Shown: piece by piece, positions 26,091 through 53,436 of the stretch
How the letters are laid out: the number at the start of each line of letters is the position of its first letter
How positions within the stretch are numbered: position 1 is the first letter of the stretch
Origin: Pseudomonas anguilliseptica
GTDB lineage: Bacteria > Pseudomonadota > Gammaproteobacteria > Pseudomonadales > Pseudomonadaceae
NCBI RefSeq assembly: GCF_900105355.1
Contig: NZ_FNSC01000001.1
Coordinates: 4,956,147 to 5,020,146 of the forward strand
Direction of reading: 5' to 3'
Length of the DNA: 64,000 nucleotides
Program-made: the position numbers and the translations under genes
Notes under the pieces: model-generated
Seen by the model: the letters and a program-made list of their open reading frames with translations, nothing else
What the model was told of the DNA's origin: nothing
The model's database searches: none

Positions 26091-27282
26091 GGATGGTCTG
26101 AAAAAGACTTCCTGATTTTGGCAAAATATCCGCACTCCACCCGCCGAGTTTTCCGATGAAGCAGATGACCTTCGCCGACGCCGAGTACGCCGGCAAGCGC
26201 AAGCAGACCCGCAAAGAATTGTTCCTGATCGAGATGGATCGGGTAGTGCCATGGAAAGGGTTGATCGCTTTGATCGAGCCGCATTATCCAAAGGGTGAAG
26301 GCGGCCGACCGTCCTATCCGCTGATGGCGATGCTGCGAGTGCATCTGATGCAAAACTGGTTCGGTTACAGCGATCCGGCGATGGAAGAGGCGCTGTACGA
26401 GACCACCATCCTACGCCAGTTTGCCGGGCTGACTCTGGAGCGCATTCCTGACGAAACCACCATCCTCAACTTCCGCCGCTTGCTGGAAAAACACGAACTG
26501 GCTGCCGGCATCCTGGCCGTGATCAATGGCTACCTGGGTGACCGTGGTTTGTCGCTGCGCCAAGGCACCATCGTCGATGCCACGCTGATCAACGCGCCGA
26601 GTTCAACCAAGAACAAGAACGGTAAGCGTGACCCTGAGATGCACTCAACCAAGAAAGGCAATCAGTATTACTTCGGCATGAAGGCGCACATCGGGGTGGA
26701 TGACGAGTCTGGCTTGGTGCACAGCGTGGTGGGTACTGCCGCCAACGTGGCGGATGTCACCCAGGTCGATAAGCTGCTGCACGGCGAGGAAAACATGGTG
26801 GGGGCCGATGCCGGATATACCGGTGTCGAGAAGCGCCCCGAGCATGAGGGCCGTCAAGTGATCTGGCAGGTTGCAGCACGGCGTAGCACTTACAAGAAAC
26901 TCGGTAAGCGCAGCGCGCTGTACAAAGCCAAGCGCAAAATCGAGAAGGCCAAGGCCCAAGTGCGAGCCAAGGTCGAGCATCCGTTTCGGGTGATCAAGCG
27001 TCAGTTCGGTTATGTGAAGACGCGCTTCCGTGGCCTGGTCAAAAACACGGCGCAACTGGTGACTTTATTCGCGCTGTCAAATCTGTGGATGGCGCGCCGA
27101 CATTTACTGACGAATGCAGGAGAGGTGCGCCCGTAATGCTGGAAATGGCTGCCGCGAGGTGCTCGCGGCGGCTAAAAACACAGAAATGAGCCGGTAATCT
27201 GATCGTTTTTGATCGATTTATCACTTTCGAAATCAGCAGAGGCTGACGTCAGCCAGAAATGCATGGCTACTTCAGAGGATCC
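26091..27282 (+). mobile_element. IS5-family insertion sequence, type A, copy 1 (intact)
   Basis: 1192 bp with imperfect terminal inverted repeats: left GGATGGTCTGAAAAAGAC, right (reverse strand) GGATCCTCTGAAGTAGCC, 13 of 18 matching. It is flanked by the 4-bp target duplication TTAA at 26087-26090 and 27283-27286, fitting the YTAR preference of the IS5 group. It carries one transposase gene. The copy at 44691 appears identical in protein sequence. Confidence 0.95.
26156..27136 (+). CDS. IS5-family DDE transposase (type A)
   Basis: 326 residues: MKQMTFADAEYAGKRKQTRK, the N-terminal DUF772-type domain (YPLMAMLRVHLMQNWFGYSD), then the DDE domain. Catalytic Asp lie in GTIVDATLINAPSS and GADAGYTGVEKRPEH, and the glutamate in RAKVEHPFRVIKRQFG. 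It cuts and rejoins the IS ends. A full-length, apparently functional copy. Confidence 0.95.
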   Translation: MKQMTFADAEYAGKRKQTRKELFLIEMDRVVPWKGLIALIEPHYPKGEGGRPSYPLMAMLRVHLMQNWFGYSDPAMEEALYETTILRQFAGLTLERIPDETTILNFRRLLEKHELAAGILAVINGYLGDRGLSLRQGTIVDATLINAPSSTKNKNGKRDPEMHSTKKGNQYYFGMKAHIGVDDESGLVHSVVGTAANVADVTQVDKLLHGEENMVGADAGYTGVEKRPEHEGRQVIWQVAARRSTYKKLGKRSALYKAKRKIEKAKAQVRAKVEHPFRVIKRQFGYVKTRFRGLVKNTAQLVTLFALSNLWMARRHLLTNAGEVRP

Positions 27283-36700: not shown

Positions 36701-36867
36701 GTTCGAATGTGAAAACAATCTGACAAAGTTGGCGTACCTTAGGGATGGTCTGAAAAAGACTTCCTGATTTTGGCAAAATATCCGCACTCCACCCGCCGAG
36801 TTTTCCGATGAAGCAGATGACCTTCGCCGACGCCGAGTACGCCGGCAAGCGCAAGCAGACCCGCAAA

Positions 36868-38058
36868 GGAAACTCTGAATAAGACTTCCTGATTTTGGCA
36901 AAATGCCCGGACGCCACCCGCCGAGTTTTCCGATGAAGCAAATGACCTTCGCCGATGCCGAGTACGCCGGCAAACGCAAGCAGACCCGCAAAGAGTTGTT
37001 CCTGATCGAGATGGATCGGGTGGTGCCGTGGAAGGGTTTGATCGCACTGATCGAACCGTATTACCCCAAGGGTGAAGGCGGTCGGCCGGCCTATCCGCTG
37101 ATGGCGATGCTACGTGTGCACCTGATGCAGAACTGGTTCGGCTACAGCGACCCGGCGATGGAAGAAGCGCTGTACGAGACCACTATCCTGCGGCAGTTCG
37201 CCGGGCTGAGTCTGGAACGTATCCCCGACGAAACCACCATCCTCAACTTCCGTCGTCTGCTGGAGAAACATGAGTTGGCTGCCGGCATCCTGGCCGTCAT
37301 CAATGGCTATCTTGGCGACCGTGGCCTGTCGTTGCGCCAAGGCACCATCGTCGATGCCACGCTGATCAATGCGCCGAGTTCGACCAAGAACAAGGACGGC
37401 AAACGGGACCCAGAGATGCACCAGGCCAAGAAGGGCAACCAATACTACTTCGGCATGAAGGCGCACATTGGCGTGGATGACGAGTCGGGGCTGGTACACA
37501 GCGTGGTAGGCACGGCGGCCAACGTGGCGGATGTCACTCAGGTCGACAAGTTGCTGCACGGCGAGGAAAACGTGGTGTGCGCCGATGCGGGTTATACCGG
37601 CGTCGAAAAGCGCCCCGAACATGATGGGCGCGAGGTGATCTGGCAGGTTGCTGCCCGCCGCAGCACCTATAAGAAGCTGGGTAAGAGCAGCCCGCTGTAC
37701 AAAGCCAAACGCAAGATCGAGAAGGCCAAGGCCCAGGTGCGCGCCAAGGTTGAGCACCCGTTCCGGGTGATCAAGCGTCAGTTCAGTTATGTAAAGACAC
37801 GCTTCCGTGGCTTGGCCAAGAACACGGCGCAACTGGTGACGCTGTTCGCGCTGTCGAACCTGTGGATGGCACGCCGACATTTACTGACCAATGCAGGAGA
37901 GGTGCGCCTGTAATGCGGGAAATGGCTGCCGCGAGCTACTCGCGGCGGCTAAAAACACAGAAATGAATGGGTAATCTGATCGTTTTTGATCGATTTGCCG
38001 CTTTCAAAATCGGCGGGGCTGAAGTCAGCCAGAAATACATGGCTACTTCAGACCATCC
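36868..38058 (+). mobile_element. IS5-family type B, copy 1, inserted in a type A element
   Basis: 1191 bp. Left end GGAAACTCTGAATAAGAC, right end (reverse strand) GGATGGTCTGAAGTAGCC, 12 of 18 matching. The target duplication CAAA (36864-36867 and 38059-38062) interrupts the type A transposase after codon 20. CAAA departs from the usual YTAR target of the group. Confidence 0.94.
36933..37913 (+). CDS. IS5-family DDE transposase (type B)
   Basis: 326 residues from the ATG at 36933 (MKQMTFADAEYAGKRKQTRK); a possible 10-residue upstream extension begins at 36903. Catalytic Asp are in GTIVDATLINAPSS and CADAGYTGVEKRPEHD, and the Glu in RAKVEHPFRVIKRQFS. It is closely related to the type A protein but with many silent and some amino-acid differences, so a separate lineage. 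Full length. Confidence 0.94.
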   Translation: MKQMTFADAEYAGKRKQTRKELFLIEMDRVVPWKGLIALIEPYYPKGEGGRPAYPLMAMLRVHLMQNWFGYSDPAMEEALYETTILRQFAGLSLERIPDETTILNFRRLLEKHELAAGILAVINGYLGDRGLSLRQGTIVDATLINAPSSTKNKDGKRDPEMHQAKKGNQYYFGMKAHIGVDDESGLVHSVVGTAANVADVTQVDKLLHGEENVVCADAGYTGVEKRPEHDGREVIWQVAARRSTYKKLGKSSPLYKAKRKIEKAKAQVRAKVEHPFRVIKRQFSYVKTRFRGLAKNTAQLVTLFALSNLWMARRHLLTNAGEVRL

Positions 38059-39148
38059 CAAAGAATTGTTCCTGATCGAGATGGATCGGGTAGTGCCATG
38101 GAAAGGGTTGATCGCTTTGATCGAGCCGCATTATCCAAAGGGTGAAGGCGGCCGACCGTCCTATCCGCTGATGGCGATGCTGCGAGTGCATCTGATGCAA
38201 AACTGGTTCGGTTACAGCGATCCGGCGATGGAAGAGGCGCTGTACGAGACCACCATCCTACGCCAGTTTGCCGGGCTGACTCTGGAGCGCATTCCTGACG
38301 AAACCACCATCCTCAACTTCCGCCGCTTGCTGGAAACACACGAACTGGCTGCCGGCATCCTGGCCGTGATCAATGGCTACCTGGGTGACCGTGGTTTGTC
38401 GCTGCGCCAAGGCACCATCGTCGATGCCACGCTGATCAACGCGCCGAGTTCAACCAAGAACAAGAACGGTAAGCGTGACCCTGAGATGCACTCAACCAAG
38501 AAAGGCAATCAGTATTACTTCGGCATGAAGGCGCACATCGGGGTGGATGACGAGTCTGGCTTGGTGCACAGCGTGGTGGGTACTGCCGCCAACGTGGCGG
38601 ATGTCACCCAGGTCGATAAGCTGCTGCACGGCGAGGAAAACATGGTGGGGGCCGATGCCGGATATACCGGTGTCGAGAAGCGCCCCGAGCATGAGGGCCG
38701 TCAAGTGATCTGGCAGGTTGCAGCACGGCGTAGCACTTACAAGAAACTCGGTAAGCGCAGCGCGCTGTACAAAGCCAAGCGCAAAATCGAGAAGGCCAAG
38801 GCCCAAGTGCGAGCCAAGGTCGAGCATCCGTTTCGGGTGATCAAGCGTCAGTTCGGTTATGTGAAGACGCGCTTCCGTGGCCTGGTCAAAAACACGGCGC
38901 AACTGGTGACTTTATTCGCGCTGTCAAATCTGTGGATGGCGCGCCGACATTTACTGACGAATGCAGGAGAGGTGCGCCCGTAATGCTGGAAATGGCTGCC
39001 GCGAGGTGCTCGCGGCGGCTAAAAACACAGAAATGAGCCGGTAATCTGATCGTTTTTGATCGATTTATCACTTTCGAAATCAGCAGAGGCTGACGTCAGC
39101 CAGAAATGCATGGCTACTTCAGAGGATCCTTAGCCGAAAAAAACTGCC

Positions 39149-39214
39149 GGGAGCAGTTTTTAACGTCGCGAAGCGACGGCCCACAGGGTGGCCGCCATGG
39201 ATGGCAGGCCATAA
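39149..39214. repeat. Dispersed intergenic repeat, copy 1 (upstream of glpR)
   Basis: About 66 bp, near-identical to 41764-41829. It contains two nested palindromes, CGTCGCGAAGCGACG and GCCATGGATGGC, and the run TTTTTAACG. The two copies flank glpR-glpD. They look like members of a REP/BIME-type family. This copy lies in the glpR leader, 50 bases before the ATG. Confidence 0.75.
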
Positions 39215-41729: not shown

Positions 41730-41763
41730 ATCCCCTTCACAAATCCAGGCCATAAAAATGGTC

Positions 41764-41829
41764 GGGAAACATTTTTAACGTCGCGTAGCGACGGCCCGCA
41801 GGGAAGCTGCCATGGATGGCAGGCATAAA
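41764..41829. repeat. Dispersed intergenic repeat, copy 2 (downstream of glpD)
   Basis: Aligns along its length with 39149-39214, including TTTTTAACGTCGCG, AGCGACGGCCC and GCCATGGATGGCAGG. It is followed at once by a hairpin terminator. No gene lies in 41730-41925. Confidence 0.75.
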
Positions 41830-43288: not shown

Positions 43289-43370
43289 CTATTAGCCCTC
43301 CTTTGGTCAGACTGTCGGCCAGCCAAGCCGCGACTTGAGCCTAGCCTCGCTACACTTTCGATCTACCTAA

Positions 43371-44686
43371 GGATGGTCTGAAAAAGACTTCCTGATTTTG
43401 GCAAAATATCCGCACTCCACCCGCCGAGTTTTCCGATGAAGCAGATGACCTTCGCCGACGCCGAGTACGCCGGCAAGCGCAAGCAGACCCGCAAAGGAAA
43501 CTCTGAATAAGACTTCCTGATTTTGGCAAAATGCCCGGACGCCACCCGCCGAGTTTTCCGATGAAGCAAATGACCTTCGCCGATGCCGAGTACGCCGGCA
43601 AACGCAAGCAGACCCGCAAAGAGTTGTTCCTGATCGAGATGGATCGGGTGGTGCCGTGGAAGGGTTTGATCGCACTGATCGAACCGTATTACCCCAAGGG
43701 TGAAGGCGGTCGGCCGGCCTATCCGCTGATGGCGATGCTACGTGTGCACCTGATGCAGAACTGGTTCGGCTACAGCGACCCGGCGATGGAAGAAGCGCTG
43801 TACGAGACCACTATCCTGCGGCAGTTCGCCGGGCTGAGTCTGGAACGTATCCCCGACGAAACCACCATCCTCAACTTCCGTCGTCTGCTGGAGAAACATG
43901 AGTTGGCTGCCGGCATCCTGGCCGTCATCAATGGCTATCTTGGCGACCGTGGCCTGTCGTTGCGCCAAGGCACCATCGTCGATGCCACGCTGATCAATGC
44001 GCCGAGTTCGACCAAGAACAAGGACGGCAAACGCGACCCAGAGATGCACCAGGCCAAGAAGGGCAACCAATACTACTTCGGCATGAAGGCGCACATTGGC
44101 GTGGATGACGAGTCGGGGCTGGTACACAGCGTGGTAGGCACGGCGGCCAACGTGGCGGATGTCACTCAGGTCGACAAGTTGCTGCACGGCGAGGAAAACG
44201 TGGTGTGCGCCGATGCGGGTTATACCGGCGTCGAAAAGCGCCCCGAACATGATGGGCGCGAGGTGATCTGGCAGGTTGCTGCCCGCCGCAGCACCTATAA
44301 GAAGCTGGGTAAGAGCAGCCCGCTGTACAAAGCCAAACGCAAGATCGAGAAGGCCAAGGCCCAGGTGCGCGCCAAGGTTGAGCACCCGTTCCGGGTGATC
44401 AAGCGTCAGTTCAGTTATGTAAAGACACGCTTCCGTGGCTTGGCCAAGAACACGGCGCAACTGGTGACGCTGTTCGCGCTGTCGAACCTGTGGATGGCAC
44501 GCCGACATTTACTGACCAATGCAGGAGAGGTGCGCCTGTAATGCGGGAAATGGCTGCCGCGAGCTACTCGCGGCGGCTAAAAACACAGAAATGAATGGGT
44601 AATCTGATCGTTTTTGATCGATTTGCCGCTTTCAAAATCGGCGGGGCTGAAGTCAGCCAGAAATACATGGCTACTTCAGACCATCC
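43371..44686 (+). mobile_element. Chimeric IS: 125-bp type A left end joined to a complete type B element
   Basis: 43371-43495 equals the left 125 bp of type A; 43496-44686 is type B copy 2, differing from copy 1 by one silent base. The 1316-bp unit is flanked by CTAA at 43367-43370 and 44687-44690, a target duplication for the hybrid as a whole. Its outer ends, GGATGGTCTGAAAAAGAC and GGATGGTCTGAAGTAGCC, match at 15 of 18 positions, more than in type A (13) or B (12). The rest of the type A element expected after IS-B is absent. Confidence 0.9.
43561..44541 (+). CDS. IS5-family DDE transposase (type B, copy 2, in the chimeric IS)
   Basis: 326 residues, identical in protein sequence to the copy at 36933. 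All DDE residues are present. It is preceded by the truncated type A start (ATG at 43436), which would make a 24-residue peptide ending in the IS-B end. This enzyme or a type A enzyme supplied in trans could have moved the chimera. Confidence 0.94.
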   Translation: MKQMTFADAEYAGKRKQTRKELFLIEMDRVVPWKGLIALIEPYYPKGEGGRPAYPLMAMLRVHLMQNWFGYSDPAMEEALYETTILRQFAGLSLERIPDETTILNFRRLLEKHELAAGILAVINGYLGDRGLSLRQGTIVDATLINAPSSTKNKDGKRDPEMHQAKKGNQYYFGMKAHIGVDDESGLVHSVVGTAANVADVTQVDKLLHGEENVVCADAGYTGVEKRPEHDGREVIWQVAARRSTYKKLGKSSPLYKAKRKIEKAKAQVRAKVEHPFRVIKRQFSYVKTRFRGLAKNTAQLVTLFALSNLWMARRHLLTNAGEVRL

Positions 44687-44690
44687 CTAA

Positions 44691-45882
44691 GGATGGTCTG
44701 AAAAAGACTTCCTGATTTTGGCAAAATATCCGCACTCCACCCGCCGAGTTTTCCGATGAAGCAGATGACCTTCGCCGACGCCGAGTACGCCGGCAAGCGC
44801 AAGCAGACCCGCAAAGAATTGTTCCTGATCGAGATGGATCGGGTAGTGCCATGGAAAGGGTTGATCGCTTTGATCGAGCCGCATTATCCAAAGGGTGAAG
44901 GCGGCCGACCGTCCTATCCGCTGATGGCGATGCTGCGAGTGCATCTGATGCAAAACTGGTTCGGTTACAGCGATCCGGCGATGGAAGAGGCGCTGTACGA
45001 GACCACCATCCTACGCCAGTTTGCCGGGCTGACTCTGGAGCGCATTCCTGACGAAACCACCATCCTCAACTTCCGCCGCTTGCTGGAAAAACACGAACTG
45101 GCTGCCGGCATCCTGGCCGTGATCAATGGCTACCTGGGTGACCGTGGTTTGTCGCTGCGCCAAGGCACCATCGTCGATGCCACGCTGATCAACGCGCCGA
45201 GTTCAACCAAGAACAAGAACGGTAAGCGTGACCCTGAGATGCACTCAACCAAGAAAGGCAATCAGTATTACTTCGGCATGAAGGCGCACATCGGGGTGGA
45301 TGACGAGTCTGGCTTGGTGCACAGCGTGGTGGGTACTGCCGCCAACGTGGCGGATGTCACCCAGGTCGATAAGCTGCTGCACGGCGAGGAAAACATGGTG
45401 GGGGCCGATGCCGGATATACCGGTGTCGAGAAGCGCCCCGAGCATGAGGGCCGTCAAGTGATCTGGCAGGTTGCAGCACGGCGTAGCACTTACAAGAAAC
45501 TCGGTAAGCGCAGCGCGCTGTACAAAGCCAAGCGCAAAATCGAGAAGGCCAAGGCCCAAGTGCGAGCCAAGGTCGAGCATCCGTTTCGGGTGATCAAGCG
45601 TCAGTTCGGTTATGTGAAGACGCGCTTCCGTGGCCTGGTCAAAAACACGGCGCAACTGGTGACTTTATTCGCGCTGTCAAATCTGTGGATGGCGCGCCGA
45701 CATTTACTGACGAATGCAGGAGAGGTGCGCCCGTAATGCTGGAAATGGCTGCCGCGAGGTGCTCGCGGCGGCTAAAAACACAGAAATGAGCCGGTAATCT
45801 GATCGTTTTTGATCGATTTATCACTTTCGAAATCAGCAGAGGCTGACGTCAGCCAGAAATGCATGGCTACTTCAGAGGATCC
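44691..45882 (+). mobile_element. IS5-family type A, copy 3 (intact)
   Basis: 1192 bp with the same ends as copy 1. It is flanked by CTAA at 44687-44690 and 45883-45886, and the left CTAA is shared with the chimeric IS. The two elements therefore lie in tandem, CTAA-chimera-CTAA-A-CTAA. It is oriented toward rapA, whose ATG is 96 bases away. Confidence 0.95.
44756..45736 (+). CDS. IS5-family DDE transposase (type A, copy 3)
   Basis: 326 residues, identical in protein sequence to the transposase at 26156. DDE residues are in GTIVDATLINAPSS, GADAGYTGVEKR and RAKVEHPFRVIK. The identity indicates recent copying. Confidence 0.95.
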   Translation: MKQMTFADAEYAGKRKQTRKELFLIEMDRVVPWKGLIALIEPHYPKGEGGRPSYPLMAMLRVHLMQNWFGYSDPAMEEALYETTILRQFAGLTLERIPDETTILNFRRLLEKHELAAGILAVINGYLGDRGLSLRQGTIVDATLINAPSSTKNKNGKRDPEMHSTKKGNQYYFGMKAHIGVDDESGLVHSVVGTAANVADVTQVDKLLHGEENMVGADAGYTGVEKRPEHEGRQVIWQVAARRSTYKKLGKRSALYKAKRKIEKAKAQVRAKVEHPFRVIKRQFGYVKTRFRGLVKNTAQLVTLFALSNLWMARRHLLTNAGEVRP

Positions 45883-45977
45883 CTAATTACACAAAGTGCC
45901 CGATGCGTAGCAATGCGCCTTTGGCCACGGCCCGACGCTGCGTTAACATAGTCGGCTTTTTCACGCGGGAGACAAGC

Positions 45978-51360: not shown

Positions 51361-52260
51361 ATGCAAACAACCGTATTACTCAAATGCGCCAGCCAACTCG
51401 GCCTGATTGTCAGTCTCAGCGCCTGCCAGGGCCTGGAAGGCATGCAGATTCAGGGCGTCGACCTGGGCAAACTGGCCAGCGCCGGCCAGCACCTGACCAA
51501 TATGGGCCAGAAAAGCGTCGATGAAGAGCGGGTGATCGGGCAGAACACCGCCTCTATCCTGCTCAACAAGGCCGCCGTGCTCAACAACCCGCCACTGCAG
51601 ACCTATGTCAACCGCGTCGGTCTGTGGGTCGCCCAGCACAGCGAGCGTCCCGACCTGCCCTGGCGTTTCGTCGTGCTCGACAGCCCGCAGGTGGCCGCCT
51701 ACGCCGCCCCGGGCGGTTACGTATTTATCACCAGCGGCATGCTCACACGGATGAACAGCGAGGCCGAATTGGCCGGCGTACTGGCCCATGAAGTGGCCCA
51801 TGTGGTGCAGCAGCATCACCTCAAGGCCATTCAGCAACAGGCACAAACCGACCTGCTGACTGACCTCGCTACCCTCGCCGTGCAGGCGGGGGCCGCCGAC
51901 AAGGGCGGTAGCCAGGCCGGCGAGCTGACCGACCGCTTTACCCGCAGCGTCAGCGACCTCTACAGCCGCGGCCTGGACCGTGGCGATGAGTACGAAGCCG
52001 ACGCCATGGGCGCGGTCATCGCCACCCGCGCCGGCTATGACGCCTACGGCCTGGCCGGCGTGCTACAGACCCTTGGCACCACCCGGCAGAACGATGCAGC
52101 GCTCACCAGCTTCCTCAAGGTGCACCCAGGTATCGACGATCGCCTGCAACGCCTGCAACGCCTGCAACCGGTCTATCTGTATATCGAGAAGAACGCCAGC
52201 GGCCAGACTCAAAGCCTGGATACCCGCTATCAGCAGGCACTTAGGGATCCTCTGAAGTAG
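51361..52260 (+). CDS. M48-family zinc metallopeptidase lipoprotein, 3' end altered by an IS
   Basis: 299 residues with a lipoprotein signal (lipobox LSAC near residue 21). The M48 domain has AAPGGYVFITSGMLTRM, H143E..H147 in VLAHEVAHVVQQHH and the third zinc ligand in YEADAMGAVIATRAGYDAYG. It is a BepA/LoiP-like outer-membrane quality-control peptidase. The IS inserted at 52241-52244 changes the last residues: the IS reading ends LRDPLK, whereas joining the flanks would end LRSK. The domain is otherwise intact, so function is probably kept. Confidence 0.88.
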   Translation: MQTTVLLKCASQLGLIVSLSACQGLEGMQIQGVDLGKLASAGQHLTNMGQKSVDEERVIGQNTASILLNKAAVLNNPPLQTYVNRVGLWVAQHSERPDLPWRFVVLDSPQVAAYAAPGGYVFITSGMLTRMNSEAELAGVLAHEVAHVVQQHHLKAIQQQAQTDLLTDLATLAVQAGAADKGGSQAGELTDRFTRSVSDLYSRGLDRGDEYEADAMGAVIATRAGYDAYGLAGVLQTLGTTRQNDAALTSFLKVHPGIDDRLQRLQRLQPVYLYIEKNASGQTQSLDTRYQQALRDPLK

Positions 52261-53436
52261 CCATGCGTTTCAGGCCGACTTCAGCCTCCGCTGATTTTGA
52301 AAGCGGAAAATCGATCAAAAACGATCATATCATCCGCTTATTTTTGTGTTTTTAGCCGCCGCGAGCACCTCGCGGCGGCTATTGCCCATATTACGGGCGC
52401 ACCTCTCCTGCAGTTGCCAGTAAATGTCTGCGTGCCATCCACAGGTTCGACAGCGCAAACAGCGTGACCAACTGCGCCGTGTTCTTGGCCAGGCCGCGGA
52501 AGCGCGTCTTCACATAGCCGAACTGCCGCTTGATCACCCGAAACGGGTGCTCGACCTTGGCGCGCACCTGGGCTTTGGCCTTCTCGATCTTGCGCTTGGC
52601 TTTGTATAGCGCGCTGCGCTTATCGAGTTTCTTGTAGGTGCTGCGGCGTGCCGCCACCTGCCAGATAACCTTCCGACCCTCATGCTCCGGACGCTTTTCC
52701 ACACCGGTGTAACCTGCGTCGGTACAAACCACGTTCTCGTCGCCATGCAGCAGCTTATCCACCTGGGTGACGTCCGCCACGTTGGCCGCCGTGCCCACCA
52801 CGCTGTGCACCAGTCCAGACTTGTCATCCACACCGATGTGGGCCTTCATGCCGAAGTAGTACTGGTTGCCCTTCTTGGTCTGGTGCATCTCCGGGTCGCG
52901 TTTACCGTCTTTGTTTTTGGTCGAGCTGGGCGCATTGATCAACGTCGCATCGACGATGGTGCCCTGGCGCAGGGACAGGCCGCGATCCCCCAGGTAGCCG
53001 TTGATCACAGCCAAGATGCCAGCCGCCAGTTCGTTTTTTTCCAGTACGCGACGGAAGTTGAGGATGGTGGTTTCGTCAGGGATACGCTCCAGGCTCAACC
53101 CGGCGAACTGCCGCAGAATGGTCGTTTCGTACAGCGCCTCTTCCATCGCAGGATCGCTGTAACCGAGCCAGTTTTGCATCAGATGAACACGCAGCATCGC
53201 CATCAACGGGTACGCCGGGCGACCGCCTTCACCCTTGGGGTAATGTGGATCGATCAGGGCAATCAAGCCCTTCCACGGCACCACCCGATCCATCTCGATC
53301 AGGAACAACTCTTTGCGGGTCTGCTTGCGCTTGCCGGCGTACTCGGCATCGGCGAAGGTCATCTGCTTCATCGGAAAACTCGGTGGGTGGCGTCCGGGCA
53401 TTTTGCCAAAATCAGGAAGACTTATTCAGAGTTTCC
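52245..53436 (-). mobile_element. IS5-family type C, inserted in the M48 peptidase 3' end
   Basis: 1192 bp, opposite in orientation to the other copies. Its left end (minus strand) GGAAACTCTGAATAAG resembles type B; its right end GGATCCTCTGAAGTAGCC equals type A. The target duplication is TTAG (52241-52244 and 53437-53440). The transposase is a third sequence type. Confidence 0.94.
52391..53371 (-). CDS. IS5-family DDE transposase (type C)
   Basis: 326 residues from the ATG at 53369-53371. It has the same architecture as types A and B, with distinctive changes (LMQNWLGYSD, FRRVLEKNELA, VDDKSGLVH, CTDAGYTGVEKRPEHE, KKLDKRSALY, LLATAGEVRP). DDE residues are intact. Confidence 0.94.
   Translation of the reverse strand: MKQMTFADAEYAGKRKQTRKELFLIEMDRVVPWKGLIALIDPHYPKGEGGRPAYPLMAMLRVHLMQNWLGYSDPAMEEALYETTILRQFAGLSLERIPDETTILNFRRVLEKNELAAGILAVINGYLGDRGLSLRQGTIVDATLINAPSSTKNKDGKRDPEMHQTKKGNQYYFGMKAHIGVDDKSGLVHSVVGTAANVADVTQVDKLLHGDENVVCTDAGYTGVEKRPEHEGRKVIWQVAARRSTYKKLDKRSALYKAKRKIEKAKAQVRAKVEHPFRVIKRQFGYVKTRFRGLAKNTAQLVTLFALSNLWMARRHLLATAGEVRP

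Follow-up and report, generated by a model that had tools for sequence, protein, structure and literature searches.

How a new insertion sequence (IS) can come into being is the question raised by a locus of Pseudomonas anguilliseptica in which the left 125 bp of one IS, called here IS-A, are fused to a complete copy of a related one, IS-B. The window, by which we mean the whole stretch of 64,000 nucleotides that was analysed, holds this fusion twice, once as a free element and once inside an IS-A. An earlier note on the same DNA proposed that the nesting of IS-B in IS-A had created a hybrid, which then transposed as a single unit. We think that this proposal is very probably correct in its main part: comparison of the sequences argues, with a probability that we put at about 0.94, that the hybrid moved in one piece to four sites and that it derives from a nest in which the left end of IS-A was paired with the right end of IS-B.

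The free hybrid and the nested copy in the window

The free hybrid is 1316 bp long and occupies positions 43371-44686 of the window. Its first part (43371-43495, plus strand) equals the initial 125 bp of an intact IS-A at 44691-45882 and closes with CAAA, the site at which IS-B had once entered IS-A. It is followed on the same strand by a complete IS-B of 1191 bp (43496-44686) with the ends GGAAACTCTG...CAGACCATCC, and the fusion described in the earlier note is thereby confirmed. Within IS-B, the list of open reading frames contains an intact transposase frame of 336 aa (43531-44541, plus strand), or 326 aa when counted from the ATG that is common to IS-A. The product matches the IS5 family transposase model of NCBIfam, NF033581 (E 1.1e-106, 356.4 bits against a cut-off of 140), and the Pfam domain DDE_Tnp_1 (PF01609, E 3.5e-37). 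The DDE transposase, the short terminal inverted repeats and the 4-bp duplication by which the IS5 family is recognised are all present; target duplications in this family have a 4-bp, YTAR-like consensus. The IS-A piece retains a truncated reading frame of 24 aa (43436-43510, plus strand), the translation of which stops just inside the left end of IS-B. Scans for promoters and terminators over 43300-44800 returned no site of either kind.

The hybrid is bounded on both sides by CTAA (43367-43370 and 44687-44690), just as the earlier note had it. The intact IS-A has the right copy as its own left flank. This IS-A, 1192 bp long and on the plus strand, stands in tandem to the hybrid and is followed by a third CTAA (45883-45886), giving the order CTAA-hybrid-CTAA-(IS-A)-CTAA. 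The two elements were most likely inserted successively, the second one into the CTAA beside the first. Elsewhere in the window there are a further IS-A with TTAA on both sides (26091-27282, plus strand) and a third isoform, whose left end is GGAAACTCTGAATAAGTC and which has CTAA on either side (52245-53436, minus strand).

The nested copy spans 36743-39129 and is read as TTAG-(IS-A 1-125)-(IS-B)-(IS-A 122-1192)-TTAG, where CAAA borders IS-B on either side. All three parts lie on the plus strand: the first 125 bp of IS-A, whose last four bases are CAAA, at 36743-36867, the IS-B at 36868-38058, and the rest of IS-A, which begins with the second CAAA and is identical to intact IS-A at 1070 of 1071 positions, at 38059-39129. 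The outer copies of TTAG lie at 36739-36742 and 39130-39133. TTAG outside and CAAA inside form the double signature of an insertion into an insertion. A 78-bp direct repeat with 81% identity (39132-39209 and 41747-41824) was also observed in this region, which is possibly a dispersed intergenic repeat.

According to the earlier note, the free hybrid is built exactly as in the nested copy. The structure is indeed the same, but the sequences are not identical, with 1315 of 1316 positions equal between 36743-38058 and 43371-44686. The exception is hybrid position 664, within IS-B, which is G in the nest and C in all four free hybrids of the genome. The IS-A of the nest carries the combination 98C and 400C, which is absent from the 50 full IS-A copies (400C occurs in five of them, always with 98T). 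With these two differences, the role of unmodified parent that the nested copy was thought to have is not borne out. It could be, then, that the hybrid did move, in agreement with the preferred explanation, and that the nest of the window is not the parent but a sibling, or a copy that conversion rebuilt. In favour of this are base 664 and the 98C/400C haplotype, as well as the finding that the nest's G (IS-B position 539) is common to three of the 22 free IS-B copies for which a base-by-base comparison was made (seven copies of 1192 bp and five others were left out of this comparison). On the other hand, the nest is the only junction copy that lies inside an IS-A, and its G could be explained by a later mutation in the nest, after which IS-B would have moved out to three sites. 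We see in a nest that is not the parent a real possibility, somewhat short of an even chance. Conversion may have altered the parent to give the present nest, which could otherwise be a sibling, and IS-B alone may also have left it.

A whole second nest, or a unit formed by IS-B and the rest of IS-A, was not found elsewhere in the fetched loci. Two contexts of the join between the right end of IS-B and CAAAGAATTG were considered as other products of the nest and discarded, the three loci that hold this join being one nested copy cut at different lengths.

Four free copies and uninterrupted sites in relatives

The genome comprises 5.23 Mb in three contigs, one of which, C1, has 5.02 Mb. A search of it for the A/B junction, with up to two mismatches allowed, returned five occurrences, all exact: two in the window (one nested, one free) and one each at C1:231273, C1:1450960 and C1:3720578. 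By this search, the left piece of IS-A abuts IS-B in the five hybrids only. The copy of the window nest is the one that lies inside an IS-A; the other four are free and mutually identical over 1316 bp. Their flanks read CTAA/CTAA (in the window), TTAA/TTAA, CCAG/CCAG and ACCAA/CAAGG, the last one being that of C1:231273, where the duplication is of 3 bp (CAA), or of 4 bp (CAAG) if the element lost one terminal base. Equal 4-mers are found at three of the four sites, two of these three being YTAR; two sites (CCAG, and CAA or CAAG) fall outside the usual set of CTAA, TTAA, CTAG and TTAG, in what are small numbers. The flanks of the five junction copies are unrelated, with 45-62 of 200 positions equal in the ungapped comparison of every pair. 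The three free hybrids outside the window have duplications of their own and no IS-A in the flank.

Judged by RapA, Pseudomonas peli DSM 17833 is the closest relative that bears a name (99% in the best segment), and a locus of 18.8 kb there matches the window with 87-93% identity in the longer DNA blocks. An empty CTAA site between 43366 and 45887, of the kind that the earlier note proposed to look for, is present there: the hybrid site is uninterrupted and has a single CTAA. The site of the nested IS-A is uninterrupted as well, with a single TTAG. The hybrid at C1:231273 interrupts a upp-like gene (locus C1:229773-234091), which we take to be uracil phosphoribosyltransferase-like, and in the three relatives in which this site was read, P. 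peli and two others, it is uninterrupted; a fourth relative matched the flank in pieces. The hybrid at C1:3720578 lies in a small prophage-like region, where it splits a gene for a phage-type integrase; the site is uninterrupted in P. peli, with one target base different. For C1:1450960, where the gene is presumably that of an OprD-like porin to judge from the translation, no counterpart was found in the four relatives searched, one of which has two weak off-site hits (<100 bp). Empty counterparts are available, in all, for three of the four free hybrid sites and for the nested site.

Beyond this genome, the exact 39-base junction was found in no record of genome_contigs, a collection that may leave out this genome's own records, and in none of 397 further genomes of the genus, which were taken from a larger group. 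The one match in these 397 genomes, at the limit of three mismatches, is probably not an A/B junction, because CTAA precedes its left end. In Viral_contigs there is one exact match, IMGVR_UViG_2687453785_000002, which probably belongs to the same strain, because its hybrid and the compared flanks are identical to the site at C1:3720578. All hybrid copies have, in consequence, a single assembly as their source, together with this record, probably of the same strain. The expectation of the earlier note that the unit would occur with other target duplications holds in its own genome, at three more sites, but not in other genomes, which gave no exact match.

A rival history of the window site is that the hybrid at 43371 was left by a deletion within a longer tandem IS-A(IS-B)-IS-A array, which the earlier note had itself set against its proposal. 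An intact IS-A follows directly, with CTAA on both sides, and recombination between the right ends is conceivable, given that IS-A and IS-B have the last four bases, ATCC, in common and 45 of the last 60 bp equal. However, such a recombination could only lie inside the final 4 bp, and separate events would be needed at four unrelated loci, three of which lack IS-A in the flank. Such a deletion is largely refuted by the other free copies and by their uninterrupted sites in a relative, and we consider it highly improbable. Misjoined repeats might also give rise to structures of this sort in this genome, in which the IS group numbers about 160 copies, since 161 right-end matches in 5.23 Mb make for a hard assembly. 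Against an artefact, the sites lie on one 5.02-Mb contig, there is a duplication at each of the four, the flanks at three of them run on unbroken in P. peli, and the hybrid site at C1:3720578 recurs base for base in IMGVR_UViG_2687453785_000002, although this record is probably of the same strain. Misassembly is therefore very hard to believe.

Movement of the hybrid as a unit is the reading that we prefer because the four free copies are identical, lie in unrelated flanks, have their own duplications and, in three cases, correspond to an empty site in P. peli. The nest, the four copies, the duplications and the three empty sites are read directly from the sequence, and in our opinion they lend good support to the course proposed in the earlier note, that is, nesting and then movement of the hybrid.

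Ends, recombination and stacked elements

The match between the two ends of each element over 18 positions was recounted, with the same figures as in the earlier note: 15 for the hybrid (the first 12 all equal), 13 for IS-A and 12 for IS-B. The earlier note has a better-matched pair of ends precede the transposition of the hybrid; a driving role for the match is not supported by the present comparison. The left ends of IS-A and IS-B are homologous, with 33 of the first 37 bases equal, and their transposases are identical in 311 of 326 residues. On this basis, the formation of the hybrid most likely ran as follows. An IS-B, of the IS5 family, entered a related IS-A at CAAA, both elements pointing the same way, which gave the row of ends A-left, B-left, B-right, A-right. 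A transposase of the group would then have paired the outer A-left with B-right, instead of B-left with B-right, and the 1316-bp segment so defined would have inserted at four places, with its own target duplications of 3-4 bp. Such a segment could be self-sufficient because the intact IS-B transposase gene lies inside it. We infer that it was IS-B's own transposase that acted on the hybrid, and that of IS-A could act in trans; the nest presumably came first and the hybrid after. A same-orientation nest would allow four end pairings, corresponding to IS-B alone, the hybrid, the whole nest, and IS-B with the rest of IS-A. The pairing of the hybrid was certainly used, at least once, and a second pairing in the nest was possibly used.

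The better-matched ends of the hybrid are the rarer ones, with four free copies against 34 for IS-B (39 exact left ends, five of them in the hybrids) and 55 for IS-A (62 left-end matches minus five hybrids, one mosaic and one other isoform), in a comparison that does not control for the ages of the elements and so does not weigh on the role of the match. A massive expansion of this one IS5 group was observed, with 62 IS-A left ends and 66 B/C-like left ends in the genome. The hybrid query had two matches in the draft genome of P. peli, with the reservation that drafts can collapse repeats. The 62 left-end matches of IS-A correspond to 62 distinct copies in the fetched DNA: 50 full ones (1192 bp), one of 1191 bp, the five hybrids, one further isoform (C1:4559406, with an A-type left end, a B-type right end and TTAG on both sides), one mosaic and four without a right end recognised by the script, three of which are IS-A over 1189-1192 positions and one over the first 582. 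The full IS-A copies are flanked by equal 4-mers in 39 of 50 cases and by unequal ones in the other 11; 2000 shuffles gave 7.6 equal cases on average and never more than 15. The left flank belongs to the set of CTAA, TTAG, TTAA and CTAG in 36 of the 50, and off-consensus targets such as CAAA, CCAA and CTGA occur. Both ends are readable in 30 of the 34 free IS-B copies, 24 of which have equal 4-mers.

The variation among these copies points to recombination as a likely process in this genome. At the IS-A sites 98/715 and 98/1011, all four combinations are present among the 50 copies (ten further rows of the test, involving site 1175, were dropped as a product of its third allele), although recurrent mutation may be behind them instead. 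The mosaic is located at C1:1208584 (in C1:1208000-1210400) and has 1191 bp, with an IS-A left end on an IS-B body, the switch falling between positions 47 and 73, and with the flanks CTAA/CAAA. It may be a recombinant of IS-A and IS-B, or a hybrid collapsed by internal recombination; its left flank has no match in four relatives.

Given that recombination seems common, as indicated by the four-combination sites, the 11 unequal flanks and the mosaic, one could conceive that each of the four sites formerly had an IS-A or an IS-B, which gene conversion replaced with hybrid sequence. However, if IS-A had been converted, the tract would have to end in the last 4 bp at every site, and conversion of IS-B cannot add 125 bp of IS-A beyond the end of IS-B without shared flank. 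We give this process next to no credence; in-place conversion is rejected, as are deletion from a tandem array and misassembly, on the four independent free copies.

Apart from the nest, elements of this group are found in tandem pairs (right end, 4 bp, left end), of which there are at least nine in the genome, counted in the fetched loci, which cover part of the IS group. The same 4-mer occurs three times in seven of the nine, the window pair of hybrid and IS-A among them, which is to be expected if one element enters the duplication next to another. The ninth pair, at C1:2658192, reads TTAA-CTAA-CTAA and looks rearranged. One pair of 2387 bp, B-CTAG-C, is identical at two places, C1:3344637 (in C1:3343500-3348500), with CTAG three times, and C1:4512105 (in C1:4511000-4516000), with CTAA on both outer sides and CTAG inside. 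In the simplest reading, this pair probably moved as a unit, but two separate tandem insertions, together with mutation or conversion of the inner spacer, may also account for it. As its ends are the ordinary B-left and C-right, improved end matching would not be needed for such events, which suggests that ordinary ends may suffice for the movement of stacked units. We lean, with some reserve, to the wider view that the ends of the isoforms are interchangeable and that IS stacking repeatedly yields longer mobile units, of which the hybrid and B-CTAG-C would be two cases.

Relation to known mobile elements and significance

IS-A and IS-B are ordinary members of the IS5 family, and the movement of an IS with adjacent DNA is already known. 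The ISPst7-like IS5 elements of Pseudomonas and Stutzerimonas have, like the hybrid, an NF033581 transposase; they are about 1.19 kb long and their 4-bp duplications are mostly CTAA, CTAG, TTAA and TTAG. The hybrid differs from them in its 1316 bp and in having two left ends in direct order. Matches were found in 807 plasmid records, and those listed, 30 of the 807, have 86-91% identity to the hybrid query, which they match in two pieces; the annotation of many of these 30 is ISPst7, ISAch1, ISPa16 or ISPpu18 family. In none of the 807 does the best place reach 95% identity to the hybrid.

Three other kinds of mobile unit can be compared with the hybrid. In transposable modules (TMos, e.g., ISPme1 and IS1247), one IS copy mobilises an adjacent DNA segment, as stated in two papers (PMC4133298, PMC3281130). 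By that definition, the hybrid resembles a TMo in that a complete IS and DNA outside one of its ends move as a unit, and differs in that the extra DNA is 125 bp of another IS, which supplies a homologous left end, and in that the hybrid has a regular end pair and reached four sites in one fixed form. A study of Paracoccus marcusii reportedly deals with a mosaic of ISPmar4 and a TMo driven by IS1247a. The transposase of ISEcp1, an element of another family, pairs the proper end with a surrogate (alternative right) end and carries the DNA between them, the surrogate ends being poor matches to its own end. In contrast, the surrogate end of the hybrid is a homologue, equal in 33 of 37 bases. Composite transposons also use the outer ends of two neighbouring ISs, and B-CTAG-C at C1:4512105 would fit such a description. 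The hybrid keeps 125 bp of one IS, with no second transposase gene or cargo, whereas a composite transposon has two complete ISs flanking a segment.

A literature search, to which most subscription journals were out of reach, gave no description of an IS formed by nesting, nor of a hybrid that, in one fixed form and with an end borrowed from another IS, has spread as a new element while a nest of the parental type is present in the same genome. We think that the value of this case lies in the steps of the origin of a new IS being readable in one genome, with a nest of the parental type, the empty sites of a relative and the offspring at four sites. With its four pairs of left and right ends, the nest offers natural substrates for studying end choice in the IS5 family. 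Moreover, the hybrid shows how an IS can become longer and change one of its ends without point mutations.
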